Source: Sphingobium xanthum
GTDB lineage: Bacteria > Pseudomonadota > Alphaproteobacteria > Sphingomonadales > Sphingomonadaceae
Assembly (NCBI RefSeq): GCF_019737615.1
Contig: NZ_JAHKKS010000001.1
Coordinates: 1 to 64,000 of the forward strand
Length of the DNA stretch: 64,000 nt
Direction: 5' to 3'
Shown here: positions 49,086 through 55,330 of the stretch, piece by piece
How the letters are laid out: each line of letters begins with the position of its first letter
Position numbering within the stretch: position 1 is the first letter of the stretch
Position numbers and translations under genes: made by a program
Notes under the pieces: generated by a model
The model's input: only the letters and a program-made list of their open reading frames with translations
Databases searched by the model: none
Told to the model about the DNA's origin: nothing

Positions 49086-49238
49086 TCGCACCGCACGAAT
49101 TTTTGTTGCGCACTAAGGCGCTGAGGCGGCGCGCGAAAAGGCGCCGCATCGTCTCACTTCGCAACAGAAATGCGATCCGGGAAATTGACCTGAACGCCTT
49201 TGAGCGTCATTTGTGTTGCAGGTGCGAAGGAATTTGGG

Positions 49239-49820
49239 GTGCGAATCGTCATCATCGATGACAGCGGCGCGCGCGCGACGGTCCTCGAGGAAGGGCTGCG
49301 GGATGCGGGCTATGACGACATCCATGTCGTGCCCCCGCGCGGTGCCTTCGTCGCGCGGCTGGAGCGCATGGCGCCCGATGTCGTGCTCATGGATTTGGGC
49401 AATCCGAGCCGCGACACGCTCGAGGAAATGCTCACCGTCAGCCGGGCGCTCGCCAAGCCGATCGCCATGTTCGTCGATCAGTCGGATGATTCGATGATCG
49501 GTGCCGCCATCGATGCGGGCATTTCCGCCTATGTTGTCGATGGCCTGCGCAAGGAGCGGGTGAAGCCGATCCTCGATCTCGCCATTCGCCGCTTCAATGC
49601 CTTCGCGCGCATGCAGACCGAGCTTGACGAGGCGCGCACGCAGCTGGCCGACCGCAAGACGATCGACCGGGCCAAGGCGATCCTTATGTCGTCGCGTGGC
49701 CTTTCGGAGCCGGATGCCTATGCGCTGTTGCGCACGACGGCGATGAACCAGGGCAAGAAGATGGTGGACGTTGCGCAGGCCCTGATCACGGCCAGCGATT
49801 TGTTGGGAGGAATGTCGTGA
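49239..49820 (+). CDS. nasT: NasT, ANTAR-domain response regulator of nitrate assimilation, 193 aa (GTG start)
   Basis: Start GTG 49239 with GAAGGA 7 bp upstream. Receiver-like N-terminus VRIVIIDDSGARATVLEEGLRDAGYDDIHVVPP with D in VVLMDLGNPS. The C-terminal ANTAR domain is LADRKTIDRAKAILMSSRGLSEPDAYALLRTTAMNQGKKMVDVAQALI. NasT prevents termination by binding paired hexaloop hairpins in leader RNA, and is kept inactive by NasS until nitrate or nitrite is present. NasT-NasS is the cognate pair: the next gene overlaps by 4 bp (GTGA). Two leaders with the expected structure lie downstream (51040 and 52655). Confidence 0.92.
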   Translation: MRIVIIDDSGARATVLEEGLRDAGYDDIHVVPPRGAFVARLERMAPDVVLMDLGNPSRDTLEEMLTVSRALAKPIAMFVDQSDDSMIGAAIDAGISAYVVDGLRKERVKPILDLAIRRFNAFARMQTELDEARTQLADRKTIDRAKAILMSSRGLSEPDAYALLRTTAMNQGKKMVDVAQALITASDLLGGMS

Positions 49821-51025
49821 CGCCCATTCGTGTCGCATTTCTGGGGCTCACCGATTCCGCCGTACTCGTCGCCGCGCGCGAGAAGGGCTTTGCCGAGGAG
49901 CAGGCCGTCGCGCTCGATCTGGTGCGCGCCGAGAGCTGGGCGACCCTGCGCGACCGGCTGGTATACGGGCAAGTCCATGCCGCGCATATGCTGGCGCCGC
50001 TCGCCGTCGCCGTGACGCTCGGCCTCAGCCAGCAGCCCTCGGCGCTTTCGGCACCCTACAAGCTCAACGTCAACGGCAACCTCATCGTCATGGCGCCGGA
50101 CTTCGCTGCGGCGCTGGAGCCGGATGCGGCCGTGCGGCTGAACGATCCGCTGGCGACAGCGCATGATTTCGCCAACGCCATCGGCCTCTATCACCGCAAG
50201 CCGATCATCGGTGTGGTGCATCGCTTCTCCAGCCACTCCCTGGCTCTGCGCTACTGGCTGGCGAGCGCGGGCATCCATCCCGATCGCGACGTGGTTCTGC
50301 GCGTCCTGCCTCCCTCCCTGATGGTCGAAGCGATGAAGGCCGGCGAGATTGACGGCTTCACCGCCGGCGAGCCGTGGGGCAGCGCCGCGATCGAAGTCGG
50401 GCTTGCCGAGGCCGTCGCCGCGAGCGAGCGGCTCTGGCAGCGCGGCGTCGAGAAGGTGCTGGCCTTCCGCACCGACTGGATGGAGCAGAATCCCGAGCCC
50501 GTGGATCGGCTGTTGCGTGGCCTTTCGGCTGCCGCGCGCTGGTGCGACGAACCGGAGAACCGCACGGAACTCTCCGAATTGCTCGCGCGGCACGCCTATG
50601 TCGATCAGCCCTCGGAACTGATCGAGCGTGCGCTGACCGGCCGGATCGTCGCGCGCCGTGGCGAGTCGCCGGTGGACCTGCCGGATTTCGTGCTGTTCGA
50701 TCGGGAGGCGACGCCCTTTCCGTGGCGCAGCCAGGCCCTGTGGATCTATTCGCAACTTGTCCGCTGGAAGATGGTCGAACCGAGCGCCGATGCCGAAGCG
50801 CGCGCCGGCGCCGTATTCCGGCCCGATATCTATCGCCGTGCGCTGGCCGACAGCGACACGCCCATGCCGGGCGCGAGCATGAAGGTCGAGGGCGCTCTGG
50901 AGGCGCCGCTCGCCATCGGCGCGCAGCGCGGATCGATCACGCTGGGGCCGGATCGTTTCTTCGACGGTCGCGCCTTCGATCCCGACCGGATTGCCGAATA
51001 TATTGCGGGCTTTGACGTGCCGTGA
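49817..51025 (+). CDS. nasS: NasS, cytoplasmic nitrate/nitrite sensor (NrtA-like), 402 aa (GTG start)
   Basis: NrtA/CmpA-type substrate-binding fold without a signal peptide: MTPIRVAFLGLTDSAVLVAAREKGFAEEQAVALDLVRAESWATLRDRLVYGQVHAAHML. Later GVVHRFSSHSLALRYWLASAGIHPDRDVVLRVLPP and GFTAGEPWG match nitrate-binding proteins of the NasS/NrtA group. Lack of a signal peptide and the coupling to nasT identify it as the cytoplasmic sensor, not a transport component. It is thought to bind NasT in the absence of nitrate and release it when nitrate binds. Start GTG 49817 overlaps the nasT stop. Confidence 0.9.
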   Translation: MTPIRVAFLGLTDSAVLVAAREKGFAEEQAVALDLVRAESWATLRDRLVYGQVHAAHMLAPLAVAVTLGLSQQPSALSAPYKLNVNGNLIVMAPDFAAALEPDAAVRLNDPLATAHDFANAIGLYHRKPIIGVVHRFSSHSLALRYWLASAGIHPDRDVVLRVLPPSLMVEAMKAGEIDGFTAGEPWGSAAIEVGLAEAVAASERLWQRGVEKVLAFRTDWMEQNPEPVDRLLRGLSAAARWCDEPENRTELSELLARHAYVDQPSELIERALTGRIVARRGESPVDLPDFVLFDREATPFPWRSQALWIYSQLVRWKMVEPSADAEARAGAVFRPDIYRRALADSDTPMPGASMKVEGALEAPLAIGAQRGSITLGPDRFFDGRAFDPDRIAEYIAGFDVP

Positions 51026-51039
51026 TGTGCTGGAGGAAA

Positions 51040-51216
51040 TTTGTGCCTTGCACAAAAAGCCGAATCACGAGATAAGGCCGTGAACGCGCGACGAGGCGCG
51101 TCCATCGGATTGCTAACCCCAGGGCAGGGGCAGGGCGTCCTCCACAACATCGCAGCAAAGCCGCTGACCGGATTTCGCACATCGCGTGCGCATGTCGGTC
51201 GAGCGGCTTTTTTTGT
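51040..51216 (+). promoter_or_regulatory. NasT-type antitermination leader upstream of the nitrate transporter gene
   Basis: Three elements lie in the 220-bp gap after nasS. (1) A 7-bp-stem hairpin at 51040-51056 (TTTGTGC-ctt-GCACAAA). (2) Two hexaloop hairpins: 51084-51101 (6-bp stem, loop GACGAG) and 51117-51130 (4-bp stem, loop AGGGCA). The second loop has A1 and G4, the conserved ANTAR loop bases; the first has G4. (3) An intrinsic terminator at 51157-51210, arms AAAGCCGCTGACCG and CGGTCGAGCGGCTTT with one bulged base and a T7 tail. This order, two hexaloop stems then a terminator, is that of ANTAR target leaders. Binding is inferred. Confidence 0.8.
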
Positions 51217-51245
51217 TTTCACCGTCCATCCAAGGGGGACGTGAC

Positions 51246-52490
51246 ATGGCAACCTTCTACGAGGATGCTCCGAGCGCCGTAAGCGCCGCATCCGACAAGA
51301 ACAGCTTCTGGCGCGCCGGCCATACGCCGACGCTCATTGCGGCTTTCCTGTATTTCGATCTCGCGTTCATGGTCTGGGTTCTGCTTGGCCCGCTCGCACC
51401 GGACATCGCCAAGACGCTCGACCTCAATGCCGCGCAAAAGGGATTGATGGTCGCGACGCCGACCCTGATGGGCGCGCTGCTGCGCGTCGGCAACGGCCTG
51501 CTGGTCGATCGCATCGGACCCAAGCTGTCCGGCGCGATCAGCCAGGTTATCGTGATCGTCGGCCTGTTTGCGGCATGGATGATGGGCGTCAACAGCTTCG
51601 GCGGCACGCTGGCGCTCGGCGTCATTCTCGGCTTCGCGGGTGCGAGTTTCGCGATCGCGCTGCCGCTCGCCAGCCGCTGGTATCCGGCCGAGCATCAGGG
51701 CAAGGCCATGGGCCTCGCCGGTATGGGCAATTCGGGCACGGTTCTCGCCTCGCTGTTCGCGCCGACCCTGGCCAAGCTGTTCGGCTGGAACGCCGTTCTG
51801 GGTCTCGCCTGCATTCCGCTCGTCATCGTGCTGGTGGTCTACATGATCATGGCGAAGGACGCGCCGAACCAGCCTGCCCCCAAGAAGTTCACCGAATATT
51901 TCCATCCGCTGAAAACGGCGGATGCCTGGTGGCTGATGGGCTTCTACGCGGTGACGTTCGGCGGCTTTTCGGGTCTTGCATCCTCGCTCACCATCTATTT
52001 CAACGACCAGTTCGGCCTCTCGACCATCATGGCGGGCTATTGCACGGCGGCCTGCGTGTTCGCCGGTTCGCTGGTCCGCCCGATGGGTGGCGCGCTGGCC
52101 GACCGGATCGGCGGCGTGAAGACGCTGATGATGGTGTTCGTGGTTGCGGCGGTTTCCCTCGGCGGCGTCAGCGTCGCGCCGACGCTGGGCAGTGCGCTGG
52201 CGCTGTTCGTCGTCGCCATGCTGGCGCTCGGCACCGGCAATGGTGCGGTCTTCCAGCTCGTTCCGCAGCGTTTTCAGGCAGAGATCGGCATCATGACAGG
52301 CCTCGTCGGCATGGCCGGCGGTGTCGGCGGCTTCTATCTTGCCTCGTCGCTTGGCTTCGCCAAGCAACTGACCGGCAGCTTTGCATCGGGCTTCCTGATT
52401 TTTGCTGCGCTTGCGTTGCTTGCCCTTGCCGGGCTCGCGATGGTCAAGGCCGGCTGGCGTTCGCGCTGGAGTACCGGCGCGCGCATCTGA
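51246..52490 (+). CDS. narK: nitrate/nitrite MFS transporter (NNP family), 414 aa
   Basis: Start ATG 51246 (MATFYEDAPSAVSAASDKN) with GGGGGAC upstream. Twelve predicted membrane helices. Both nitrate signature regions of the NNP family are visible: GLAGMGNSGTVLASLFAPTLAKLFGW and, in the second half, LGTGNGAVFQLVPQRF. Such proteins import nitrate and/or export nitrite across the inner membrane. It is the first gene of the nas operon and sits behind the NasT-type leader. Assignment to NarK versus NasA-type transporters is by position; in assimilatory clusters it is a nitrate importer. Confidence 0.9.
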   Translation: MATFYEDAPSAVSAASDKNSFWRAGHTPTLIAAFLYFDLAFMVWVLLGPLAPDIAKTLDLNAAQKGLMVATPTLMGALLRVGNGLLVDRIGPKLSGAISQVIVIVGLFAAWMMGVNSFGGTLALGVILGFAGASFAIALPLASRWYPAEHQGKAMGLAGMGNSGTVLASLFAPTLAKLFGWNAVLGLACIPLVIVLVVYMIMAKDAPNQPAPKKFTEYFHPLKTADAWWLMGFYAVTFGGFSGLASSLTIYFNDQFGLSTIMAGYCTAACVFAGSLVRPMGGALADRIGGVKTLMMVFVVAAVSLGGVSVAPTLGSALALFVVAMLALGTGNGAVFQLVPQRFQAEIGIMTGLVGMAGGVGGFYLASSLGFAKQLTGSFASGFLIFAALALLALAGLAMVKAGWRSRWSTGARI

Positions 52491-52573
52491 GGACCAGGCT
52501 CAGTCATGAGAATATTGGCCGAAGAGTACCGAAAAGGTGCCTTCGGTCAGTGTTTCTGGAGGGGTGCCAGGGA

Positions 52574-52604
52574 AATCCTCTCTCTGAAAGGAGGGAGGAT
52601 TTTC
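52574..52604 (+). terminator. intrinsic terminator after the nitrate transporter gene
   Basis: Stem arms AATCCTCTCTCT (52574-52585) and GGAGGGAGGATT (52590-52601), closed by GAAA and followed by TTTTCG. Two G-T pairs are needed, otherwise the 12-bp stem is complementary. It separates the transporter from the nirB leader, so nirB may start its own transcript here or be reached by read-through. Confidence 0.7.
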
Positions 52605-52654
52605 GTTATAAATCACTTGAGCGACTCGACCGTTTCGAGTATGTTGCAATGCGA

Positions 52655-52785
52655 AGGGCTGGGCAGTCCTCCACTGATATAGTTGCGATCGATCCGATGT
52701 TGGGTCGTTCGGGCGTTACGTGATGGCAAGGCCGCCATCCAGGCTTCGGTTCCTGCGAACCGAGGTCCGGATGGCGGCCTTTTTC
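52655..52785 (+). promoter_or_regulatory. NasT-type antitermination leader upstream of nirB
   Basis: Same plan as the first leader. Hexaloop hairpins occur at 52655-52670 (stem AGGGC/GTCCT with one G-T, loop TGGGCA) and 52690-52707 (stem CGATCC/GGGTCG with one G-T, loop GATGTT). Both loops have G at position 4. An intrinsic terminator follows: arms AAGGCCGCCATCC (52728-52740) and GGATGGCGGCCTT (52769-52781), a small nested hairpin between them, and a T5 tail. The terminator ends 16 bp before the nirB ribosome site, so nirB expression should depend on antitermination. Confidence 0.77.
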
Positions 52786-52801
52786 GTTTTGGAGCACGGG
52801 C

Positions 52802-55330
52802 ATGGATTTTCAGAATCAACGGGCGGACGACAAGGATCCCGCCGCCGCTGAAGAGGGCGCCCGCAACGGTGCCGATCAGCGCGAGCATCTGGTCGTCATC
52901 GGCAACGGCATGGCCGGTTGCCGCGCGGTCGAGGAACTGCTGGCGCGCGATCCGGGCCGCTATCGCGTCACCATCTTCGGCGCCGAACCGCATGTGAATT
53001 ATAATCGCATCATGCTCTCGCCGGTCCTGGCCGGGGAGAAGACGTTCGACGATATCGTGATCAATGGCCATGACTGGTATGCCGACAATGGCATCTCGCT
53101 CGTCACGAGCGACGCCGTCACCGCCATCGATCGCGCCGCGAAGACCGTTACCAGCCGCTCGGGTCGCACCCTCGGCTATGACCGCCTGCTGATCGCGACC
53201 GGGTCCGATCCGTTCATCATCCCCGTGCCGGGCAAGGATCTGCCCGGCGTCATCAGCTTCCGCGACATGAAGGATGTCGACACGATGCTGGCGGCGGCGG
53301 ATGCGGGCGGCGACGCCGTCGTGATCGGCGGCGGCCTGCTTGGGCTGGAGGCCGCCCACGGGCTCAGCCTGCGCGGCATGAAAGTGACCGTCCTGCACAT
53401 CATGCCGACGCTCATGGAGCGCCAGCTCGACGAGGCAGCCGGCTGGCTGCTCAAGACCGCGCTGGAAGGGCGCGGCCAGACCGTGCTGACCGGTGCCGAC
53501 ACCGCCGAGATCTATGGCGACGGCAAGGTCGAGGGCGTGCGGCTGAAGGACGGGCGCGACATTCCGGCGAGCCTCGTCGTCATGGCGGTCGGCATTCGTC
53601 CGTCGGTGGCGCTGGCGCGCGAGGCGGGGCTGGATATCGGTCGCGGCATCAAGGTCGACGATCATATGGTGACGAGCGACCCGTCGATCCTCGCGGTCGG
53701 TGAGTGCGTCGAGCATGACGGCAATGTCTATGGCCTCGTCGCCCCGCTCTGGGACATGTGCCGCAGCCTGGCGGACGGTCTGGTCGGCAAGGCCAATCCC
53801 TATCGCGGGTCCGTCACCTCGACCAAGCTCAAGGTGGCCGGGCTCGACGTGTTCTCCGCGGGCGATTTCTCCGGCACCGGGGGGGGCTGCGAGGACATCG
53901 TCCTGCGCGATGCCAGCCGTGGCGTCTACAAGCGCCTGATCCTGCAGGACGAAAAGATCGTCGGCGCGGTGCTCTATGGCGACACGGCTGACGGCAACTG
54001 GTATTTCGATCTCCTCAAGAAGGGCGAGAATGTCGGCGAGATGCGCGATTTTCTCATCTTCGGCCAGGCCTTCGCCTCTGGGGGTGGGCAGGCGGACCCT
54101 AAGGCGGCCGTTGCGGCGCTCTCGGACGATGCCGAGATTTGCGGCTGCAACGGCGTCAGCAAGGGCCAGGTCGTTTCCTGCATTGCCAAGGGCGCACACA
54201 GCCTCGATGCCGTGCGCTCGACCTGCAAGGCCTCGGCGAGCTGCGGCTCCTGCACCGGCCTCGTCGAGACTCTTCTGGCGCTGACGCTCGGCGACGACGT
54301 CCAGAGCGGGCCGAAGACGATGTGCAAATGCACGAGCTACACGCATGACGACGTGCGCCGCGAGATCGTCGCGCAGGGCATGAAGTCGATGCCGGAGGTC
54401 ATGCAGAAGATGCACTGGTCGACGCCGGACGGCTGCTCCTCCTGCCGCCCCGCGCTCAATTATTATCTGCTCTGCGCTTTGCCGGGCGAGTATGTCGACG
54501 ACCAGCAGAGCCGCTTCGTCAACGAGCGCATGCACGCGAACATCCAGAAGGACGGCACCTATTCCGTCGTTCCGCGCATGTGGGGCGGGCTCACCAATCC
54601 GCGCGAGCTGCGCGCGATCGCCGATGTGGTCGAGAAGTATAACGCGCCGATGGTCAAGGTGACCGGTGGCCAGCGGCTCGACATTTTCGGCATCAGGAAG
54701 GAGGATTTGCCTGCCGTCTGGGCCGATCTCAACGCCGCCGGCATGGTCTCGGGCCATGCTTATGGCAAGTCGCTGCGTACGGTGAAGACCTGCGTCGGCT
54801 CCGAATGGTGCCGCTTCGGTACGCAGGATTCGACGGGCCTCGGCGTCAAGCTGGAGCGGATGACCTGGGGCTCGTGGATGCCCCACAAGTTCAAGATCGC
54901 CGTCTCGGGCTGTCCGCGCAATTGCGCCGAAGCCACGATCAAGGACTTCGGCGTCGTCTGCGTGGACTCTGGCTATGAGCTCCATGTCGCCGGCAATGGC
55001 GGCATCCACGTCCGCGCCACGGACCTGCTCTGCCGGGTGAGCACCGAGCAGGAGGCGATGGATTACTGCGCGGCCTATATCCAGCTCTACCGCGAGGAAG
55101 CCCGCTATCTGGAACGCACCGCGCCCTGGGTCGAACGGGTCGGCGTCGATTATGTGCGGCAGCGCATCGTCGAGGACGGCGTCGGCCGCGAGGCGCTGCG
55201 CTCGCGCTTTCTCTTCTCGCAGAGCTTCAGCCAGGACGATCCCTGGGCCGAGCGTGCTGCCGGCGCGGACCGCGAACAGCATGCGCATATGGCGCAGGTG
55301 CGACCCATCAATCTGGAGGCAGTAGCATGA
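52802..55330 (+). CDS. nirB: assimilatory nitrite reductase (NADH) large subunit, 842 aa
   Basis: Domains in order: FAD/NADH-binding (VVIGNGMAGCRAVEEL; DAVVIGGGLLGLEAAHGLSLRGMKVTVLH), two BFD-type [2Fe-2S] modules (CGCNGVSKGQ...CKASASCGSC and CKCTSYT...GCSSCRPAL), and the siroheme/4Fe-4S domain with Cys in TCVGSEWCRFGTQDSTGLG and SGCPRNCAEATIKDFGVV. Length 842 aa matches the family. It reduces nitrite to ammonium in the cytoplasm with NADH. The start ATG 52802 has GGAGCACGGGC. Its stop overlaps the start of nirD (ATGA). Siroheme is supplied by the CobA-type methyltransferase encoded at the end of the operon. Confidence 0.95.
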   Translation: MDFQNQRADDKDPAAAEEGARNGADQREHLVVIGNGMAGCRAVEELLARDPGRYRVTIFGAEPHVNYNRIMLSPVLAGEKTFDDIVINGHDWYADNGISLVTSDAVTAIDRAAKTVTSRSGRTLGYDRLLIATGSDPFIIPVPGKDLPGVISFRDMKDVDTMLAAADAGGDAVVIGGGLLGLEAAHGLSLRGMKVTVLHIMPTLMERQLDEAAGWLLKTALEGRGQTVLTGADTAEIYGDGKVEGVRLKDGRDIPASLVVMAVGIRPSVALAREAGLDIGRGIKVDDHMVTSDPSILAVGECVEHDGNVYGLVAPLWDMCRSLADGLVGKANPYRGSVTSTKLKVAGLDVFSAGDFSGTGGGCEDIVLRDASRGVYKRLILQDEKIVGAVLYGDTADGNWYFDLLKKGENVGEMRDFLIFGQAFASGGGQADPKAAVAALSDDAEICGCNGVSKGQVVSCIAKGAHSLDAVRSTCKASASCGSCTGLVETLLALTLGDDVQSGPKTMCKCTSYTHDDVRREIVAQGMKSMPEVMQKMHWSTPDGCSSCRPALNYYLLCALPGEYVDDQQSRFVNERMHANIQKDGTYSVVPRMWGGLTNPRELRAIADVVEKYNAPMVKVTGGQRLDIFGIRKEDLPAVWADLNAAGMVSGHAYGKSLRTVKTCVGSEWCRFGTQDSTGLGVKLERMTWGSWMPHKFKIAVSGCPRNCAEATIKDFGVVCVDSGYELHVAGNGGIHVRATDLLCRVSTEQEAMDYCAAYIQLYREEARYLERTAPWVERVGVDYVRQRIVEDGVGREALRSRFLFSQSFSQDDPWAERAAGADREQHAHMAQVRPINLEAVA

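Follow-up and report, generated by a model that had tools for sequence, protein, structure and literature searches.

Probable NasT-controlled antitermination leaders with three hexaloops before the nitrate transporter and nirB genes of Sphingobium xanthum

In the RNA targets of ANTAR-domain proteins, as laid out by Ramesh et al. (PMC3369931), the last hairpin excludes the terminator, and in Paracoccus denitrificans the ANTAR protein NasT is reported to bind the leader RNA of nasA, while its complex with the sensor NasS is split by nitrate or nitrite. On the role of A at position 1 of the target hexaloops (A1) the evidence diverges: mutants say that it is important, but the EutV-RNA structure shows no specific contact to it. 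The present analysis concerns a window of 64,000 nucleotides (nt) of Sphingobium xanthum DNA (contig NZ_JAHKKS010000001.1, positions 1 to 64,000 of the forward strand), which holds a sphingomonad nitrate-assimilation cluster of nasT, nasS, a major facilitator superfamily (MFS) transporter gene, nirB and a molybdopterin oxidoreductase gene. Two leaders of this cluster, one before the transporter gene and one before nirB, are very probably nitrate-controlled antitermination switches worked by NasT, with three hexaloops each. The logic of ANTAR antiterminators is known, and what these leaders add to it is a third hexaloop where two are the rule; among the open-access PMC papers listed in the searches, none was found to describe NasT leaders with three hexaloops.

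The anatomy of the leaders, their conservation, the covariation of the upstream stems, the overlap of the third hairpin with the terminator and the G4-binding residues of NasT (G4 being G at loop position 4) were computed here. Each leader comprises two upstream hexaloop hairpins (P1 and P2), a third (P3) and an intrinsic terminator:

51084 to 51101, forward strand: transporter-leader P1 hexaloop hairpin, ACGCGC-GACGAG-GCGCGU, with G1 and G4, loop at 51090-51095.
51107 to 51140, forward strand: transporter-leader P2 hexaloop hairpin, upper stem CCCC-AGGGCA-GGGG on a GGAU/GUCC lower stem, with A1 and G4, loop at 51121-51126.
51153 to 51166, forward strand: transporter-leader P3 antiterminator hairpin, CAGC-AAAGCC-GCUG, with A1 and G4.
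51157 to 51214, forward strand: transporter-leader intrinsic terminator, stem 51157-51210 and then a U run; excludes P3.
52655 to 52670, forward strand: nirB-leader P1 hexaloop hairpin, AGGGC-UGGGCA-GUCCU, with U1 and G4, loop at 52660-52665.
52686 to 52711, forward strand: nirB-leader P2 hexaloop hairpin, CGAUCC-GAUGUU-GGGUCG with a short lower stem, G1 and G4, loop at 52696-52701.
52722 to 52739, forward strand: nirB-leader P3 antiterminator hairpin, GAUGGC-AAGGCC-GCCAUC, with A1 and G4.
52728 to 52788, forward strand: nirB-leader intrinsic terminator, stem 52728-52781 and then a U run; excludes P3.

An initial annotation of this DNA had named the four upstream hexaloops and proposed NasT-type antitermination leaders, a proposal that the anatomy supports. 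Its four loops lie where it placed them, all with G4 and only AGGGCA with A1, and the strong terminator that it put within 20-30 bases of the second hairpin starts 20-26 nt past the upper stem of that hairpin in both leaders. Its two-hexaloop plan does not hold, as it overlooked the hexaloop of P3 on the 5' arm of the terminator, so that the pair which it described is the upstream pair. In both leaders the loop and 3' arm of P3 double as the 5' arm of the terminator, and P3 and the terminator are therefore mutually exclusive. By the definition of Ramesh et al. (2012), tandem hexaloop stem-loops of at least 3 base pairs (bp) number three in each leader, one above the two of the ANTAR family. 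All six window loops have G4 and the final hairpin overlaps an intrinsic terminator, as in the dual-hexaloop family, but A1 is found in only three of the six (transporter P2 and both P3), the others having G1, U1 and G1; since A1 is not in every loop, strict membership of that family fails. With the lower stem of P2 formed, the linkers are 5 nt (P1-P2) and 12 nt (P2-P3) in the transporter leader and 15 and 10 nt in the nirB leader; without it they are 15 and 22 nt and 19 and 14 nt, respectively. The linker in the eut genes of Enterococcus faecalis is about 5-12 nt (Ramesh et al. 2012, PMC3369931).

P3 was sought as an A1-G4 hexaloop hairpin whose loop and 3' arm also form the 5' arm of an intrinsic terminator. 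With a stem of at least 4 bp, the window yields two such sites, with loops at 51157 and 52728. When the stem could be as short as 3 bp and the terminator weaker, eight further sites joined these two, all of them inferior in the U run, the length of the hairpin or the length of the terminator. The stricter criteria, applied to both strands of 81 loci (1.19 Mb), give 129 matches. Four of these lie off the leader positions (in L013, L031, L042 and L044, one per locus) and none on the opposite strand, a count made by reading the rows by eye, in which matches just before the transporter gene were counted without being among the rows read. Up to P3, the minimum free energy (MFE) fold of the transporter leader consists of exactly the three hairpins, and when the terminator is added P3 is replaced by it in both leaders. 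A long-range helix predicted in the nirB leader between the -35 region and the 3' side of P2 was rejected, being gone when the fold begins near the inferred transcript start.

Conservation was followed in 80 NasT loci fetched by protein similarity (L001-L080). The element CAGC-ARRGCC-GCUG stands after nasS in 64 of the 79 loci with a readable nasS end, and the nirB-type element in 58 of 80, in each case in addition to the window. These fixed-letter searches cannot alone show conservation of the P3 loop, because their patterns fix most of its letters; when any six-base loop on the terminator arm was allowed, the best was again CAGC-ARRGCC-GCUG in 60 of 74 rows after nasS, the window's own copy included. 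That the hairpins exceed chance is borne out by alignment. With no structure supplied, RNAalifold places the three hairpins at the same columns in 54 transporter-type and 39 nirB-type leaders, adding in the nirB-type consensus a pair between P1 loop positions 1 and 6. Compensatory cells (both sides changed, pairing kept) in the three-helix structure number 32 in the transporter leaders against a shuffle mean of 5.7 (slid controls at most 2) and 43 in the nirB leaders against 13.3 (slid controls at most 15), nearly all of 500 shuffles falling below the observed values. Stem covariation in relatives, the absence of which had been named beforehand as telling against the annotation, is thus present in the upstream stems, and it comes entirely from P1 and P2. 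The transporter alignment holds 54 of 63 distinct leaders, L040, L050, L054, L060-L064 and L074 being omitted as their P1 or P2 is bulged, register-shifted or hard to align; the nirB alignment holds 39 distinct leaders, with 18 "long" rows omitted for an insert between P2 and P3. In these long leaders (L022, L030, L053 and others) a GC-rich extra hairpin, such as CCGGC ... GCCGG, lies between P2 and P3 and raises their distance to 53-61 nt. After nasS in L054, and at the visible end of L050, the same triple leader appears to precede a putative substrate-binding protein with a signal sequence rather than a transporter gene.

G4 is present in all 228 distinct P1 and P2 loops scored in the window and its relatives (transporter P1 55/55, transporter P2 60/60, nirB P1 56/56, nirB P2 57/57), whereas position 1 varies, with 165 loops carrying A, 62 carrying G and one carrying U. 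By hairpin, position 1 is G in 42 and A in 13 of the transporter P1 loops, A in 58 and G in 2 of transporter P2, A in 51, G in 4 and T in 1 of nirB P1, and A in 43 and G in 14 of nirB P2. The code of the upstream hairpins, as read from these loops, is purine-N-N-G-N-N (RNNGNN). The tolerance at position 1 suggested in the initial annotation is accordingly real insofar as the loops are looser than the published A1, but it is not general: the sole U among the 228 is the window's own nirB P1 loop, which makes the window an outlier and limits the tolerance to purines. Among 29 same-genus loci, some of which may repeat genomes among L001-L080, 28 nirB P1 loops were scored, all with G4, and with A in 26 and G in 2 at position 1. 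Twelve rows were unscored (8 transporter P1, 3 transporter P2, 1 nirB P1); the unscored transporter P1 can nonetheless be read as a G4 hexaloop in L060, L061, L063 and L064, may read AAGAAT (A4) or a mismatch-closed G4 loop in L062, and is by eye a bulged or seven-base loop in L040, L050 and L054. On the NasT-NasS tree, a quick method gives a minimum of 5, 2, 4 and 5 position-1 changes for transporter P1, transporter P2, nirB P1 and nirB P2, 16 in sum. The near-identity of AGGGCA and TGGGCA, to which attention had been drawn because these loops occupy opposite positions in the two leaders, is not kept in relatives (L001, for example, has ACAGAC and AAGGCT) and is probably chance.

In the EutV-RNA study (PMC8934654), A1 makes no specific contact and is proposed to block cross-loop pairing. 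Avoidance of Watson-Crick pairs between positions 1 and 5 is unsupported in the 228 loops, 49 being able to form one against 45.5 expected. Pairs between positions 1 and 6 are mildly short, at 61 where 71.9 would be expected, a count as low as this being reached in 4 of 2000 shuffles; the U1-A6 loop of the window runs counter to this shortage. The sphingomonad leaders offer a natural mutagenesis set, with G4 constant in the scored loops and position 1 changing, and ANTAR searches that require A1 and exactly two hairpins would miss or misread such leaders.

Taken together, these data allow a model of the switch to be drawn, in which the release by nitrate, the binding of RNA and the order of events would follow those of P. 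denitrificans NasT and E. faecalis EutV by analogy. Without nitrate, NasT would be held by NasS and RNA polymerase would halt at the terminator. With nitrate present, NasT would be freed and recruited co-transcriptionally to the hexaloop hairpins P1 and P2, recognising G4 together with a purine at loop position 1, and would then hold P3; as P3 takes the 5' arm of the terminator, the terminator would be blocked and the gene read. The transporter gene and nirB would in this way be two separately promoted targets of one NasT. Aligned with EutV, NasT keeps R142, K143, K149, E160, Y164, R168, M172 and N173, which in EutV hold G4 and the loop, and differs at K147 (to R), R175 (to G) and R177 (to K), the residues being read from the alignment with chain numbers 2 above those of the paper. 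The third hexaloop raises the question of how many NasT dimers are needed per leader. Walshe et al. (PMC8934654) propose that a dimer engages a single hexaloop at any one time, first P1 and then the terminator hairpin. P. denitrificans NasT is described as roughly hexameric once freed from NasS, and for that reason one NasT dimer per hexaloop is conceivable. It is possible, if doubtful, that the NasT leaders of sphingomonads and some other Pseudomonadota generally combine two recruitment hairpins at near-fixed spacing with one antitermination hairpin, loading a NasT oligomer (for example a dimer per hexaloop), and that the extra hairpin buffers changes at position 1, giving the code RNNGNN rather than ANNGNN.

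A wider survey of Pseudomonadota covered 107 NasT-bearing loci, including eight named plasmids, beside 4 further fetched loci without a NasT match. In 58 loci the scan gave 63 A1-G4 hairpins that overlap a terminator and have one or more RNNGNN hairpins upstream, a list that was not hand-curated, and no A1-G4 terminator hairpin with an upstream partner was found in 49 of the 107. The upstream hexaloops are one in 43 of the 63 leaders, two in 19 and three in one, so that most of these leaders have two hexaloops in all and 20 have three or more; the extras are partly chance, as 35 hairpins with non-RNNGNN loops stand beside 21 additional RNNGNN ones. Three-hexaloop leaders are probably not unique to sphingomonads, the group that the covariation analysis covered. 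On both strands, an upstream RNNGNN partner accompanies 65 of 86 A1-G4 sites and 1 of 17 with A1 and another base at position 4; the corresponding counts are 1/5 for U1-G4, 0/8 for C1-G4 and 13/29 for G1-G4. With G moved to position 3, 5 or 6 they are 9/22, 17/31 and 2/13, which are not clean controls, loops like AAGGCC or AACGGC holding G at 4 too. Seven of the 13 G1 cases are likely G1 versions of P3 (L165, L206, L209, L210, L229, L237 and L239, with loops GACGCC, GAAGCC or GCAGCC), and in some genera G1 may thus be tolerated even in the antiterminator hairpin. Survey leaders with a single upstream hexaloop carry G1 more rarely (1 of 43 loops) than do those with two or more (10 of 41, or 6 of 31 outside the window's family), a weak difference that is uncorrected for kinship and possibly inflated by chance hairpins. 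L180 (3842), L184 (3918) and L208 carry a second terminator-overlapping hexaloop leader about 1.75-1.8 kilobases past nasS, which suggests that they hold two NasT-controlled units as well. After nasS in L160 (Paracoccus ferrooxidans), two A1-G4 hexaloops, AATGGC and AATGAT, are seen by eye, and the scan found no U-run terminator there.

Several points weigh against a NasT switch with three hexaloops. The searched element is absent after nasS in 15 of 79 loci, some of which are short contigs or rearranged, while others belong to the divergent NasT group L072-L080, and the nirB-type element was not found in 22 of 80, of which 12 show nirB with more than 150 nt upstream. The patterns behind the relatives' tables fixed most P3 letters, and P3 itself is invariant within each leader type and hence without covariation. 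Once the terminator is added, P1 and P2 too are rearranged in the MFE fold of the transporter leader, though both persist when a longer stretch is folded; before the terminator, the leaders fold no better than shuffles (z -0.21 for the transporter and 0.40 for nirB), and folding energy alone therefore proves nothing. A strict promoter scan found none at either leader, so that the promoters given below are putative. Finally, the window's nirB P1 has U1, predicted to close as a U1-A6 pair, and in the EutV system A1U changes (A29U, A53U) lowered eutP induction (PMC3369931).

In the model NasT would contact P1, and it is here that a canonical two-hexaloop ANTAR switch would differ, with NasT contacting P2 and P3 alone and P1 acting as a 5'-end hairpin for RNA stability or folding. 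This arrangement is unlikely without being negligible. It accords with the single upstream RNNGNN hexaloop of 43 of the 63 survey leaders, with the start of P1 nearly at the inferred start point of transcription, and with the transporter P1 being mostly G1 (42 of 55) unlike P2 (2 of 60); yet P1 retains a six-base loop and G4 in every distinct leader scored (55 of the transporter type, 56 of the nirB type), its stem covaries, and in nirB leaders its loop distance to P2 is near-fixed, whereas that from P2 to P3 is not. The plan of the initial annotation, with P1 and P2 as the dual hexaloop target and a terminator following without P3, is very unlikely, even though both hairpins are real, conserved and regularly spaced. 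Neither of them overlaps the terminator, so that binding them alone would leave it free to form, and P3 is found in both window leaders as well as in the 64 transporter-type and 58 nirB-type relatives counted above; the survey contrast of 65/86 with 1/17 likewise speaks against this plan. Attenuators answering to something besides NasT, for example by translation-coupled attenuation or a small RNA, could be entertained in that termination itself requires no NasT, but they are very improbable, as the G4 hexaloops fit an ANTAR target, the neighbouring nasT is the one gene for an ANTAR protein that was found, and leader binding by NasT has been shown in P. denitrificans.

For NasT-controlled leaders with three hexaloops, spacing and promoters add further detail. 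Of 58 nirB leaders, 55 have a distance of 33-35 between the loops of P1 and P2, and the P2-P3 distance is 31-32 in 41 and 53-61 in 17; in nirB leaders P1 and P2 thus look like a unit, to which P3 is attached at a more variable distance. In the 57 scored transporter leaders the P1-P2 and P2-P3 distances are 28-34 and 30-42. The sequence elements that would delimit the two transcription units are:

51048 to 51076, forward strand: putative sigma70-like promoter of the transporter leader, TTGCAC - 17 - GATAAG, from which the start would be at about 51083.
52573 to 52608, forward strand: hairpin behind the transporter gene, probably a terminator, AAAUCCUC ... GAGGAUUU, with a U-rich stretch next to it on the 3' side; terminator-like match at 52579-52598.
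52617 to 52645, forward strand: putative sigma70-like promoter of the nirB leader, TTGAGC - 17 - TATGTT, from which the start would be at about 52652.

The promoter elements end 7 (transporter) and 9 (nirB) bases ahead of P1, and loose promoter patterns, composed after the sequences had been viewed, match 37 of 65 transporter and 40 of 59 nirB leaders. Because it has its own promoter-like element and a terminator-like hairpin follows the transporter gene, nirB is probably a transcription unit of its own; the leader and terminator ascribed to it in the initial annotation are there, and its placement inside the operon is not upheld. Many relatives, though not all, have such a leader of its own before nirB. 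nirB is present with more than 150 nt upstream and the searched nirB-type P3 is absent in L040, L045, L050, L060, L061, L063, L064, L066, L070, L075, L077 and L080, and in some of these 12 loci nirB sits close behind the transporter gene. An inverted repeat, GGAATCGC ... GCGATTCC, lies across the -35 element of some nirB promoters (L023, L028, L041 and others), and the longest inverted repeat of the nirB promoter region contains GAATC/GATTC in 16 of 59; it is possible that this repeat is an operator for a nitrogen regulator. Upstream of rhizobial-type nas leaders (L157, L158, L163, L164 and L178) stands the element TGGCACG-N4-YTGC, which we take to be a sigma54-like promoter; the sphingomonad leaders have a sigma70-like one.

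The genes around the leaders are as follows:

49200 to 49820, forward strand: nasT, receiver and ANTAR protein, the proposed antiterminator (Pfam ANTAR 9.2e-21, Response_reg 9.3e-9).
49817 to 51025, forward strand: nasS, nitrate sensor of the binding-protein (NMT1_2) family, overlapping nasT (Pfam NMT1_2 3e-62).
51246 to 52490, forward strand: nitrate transporter of the MFS (Pfam MFS_1 5.2e-40).
52802 to 55330, forward strand: nirB, assimilatory nitrite reductase large subunit (Pfam Pyr_redox_2, NIR_SIR and Fer2_BFD).

The receiver-ANTAR gene adjoins the gene of a soluble sensor of nitrate-binding type, with nas genes alongside, as expected of a NasS-NasT pair, and in a profile search nasT is the sole ANTAR match of the genome, at the same locus as both leaders. 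The nitrate role of the transporter is inferred from gene context, and the molybdopterin oxidoreductase of the cluster reads as the nitrate reductase. Curated Rfam families give 0 matches in the window at the gathering score. A model search of the genome, in which the 150 top-ranking first-look candidates were scored out of 4690 in one case and 5034 in the other, found no strong leaders beyond the transporter and nirB sites, the E-values being 1.9e-14 and 8.1e-13 at the true sites and 0.055 (R2) and 0.052 (R1) at the next-best places.

With Paracoccus denitrificans NasS-NasT (PMC3795266, PMC5424462) the window shares nasT-nasS beside nas genes; there the leader ahead of the first nas gene is bound by NasT and leader hairpin HI is essential, but hairpins HI and HII were tested in one leader (PMC5424462), whereas here two leaders carry three hexaloops each. 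Bradyrhizobium diazoefficiens (PMC6759348) likewise has one NasT with several leader targets, including a predicted one before its assimilatory nitrite reductase gene; its targets include denitrification genes, whereas here only two nas leaders score strongly in the genome. The EutV/eut leaders of Enterococcus faecalis (PMC3369931, PMC8934654) resemble those of the window in their G4 hexaloops, the last of which lies on the 5' arm of the terminator, and in an ANTAR protein with the same G4-binding residues. They differ in having two hexaloops rather than three, in carrying A1, with reduced induction in A1U mutants, where the upstream hairpins here have a purine, and in loop starts (A29 and A53) that are 24 nt apart, against loop-to-loop distances of about 28-42 nt here (53-61 from P2 to P3 in some nirB leaders). 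The nearest precedent found for a third hexaloop is the EutX small RNA (PMC8934654), in which an additional G4 hexaloop lies beside the dual hexaloop motif, although EutX, unlike these leaders, is a sequestering RNA.

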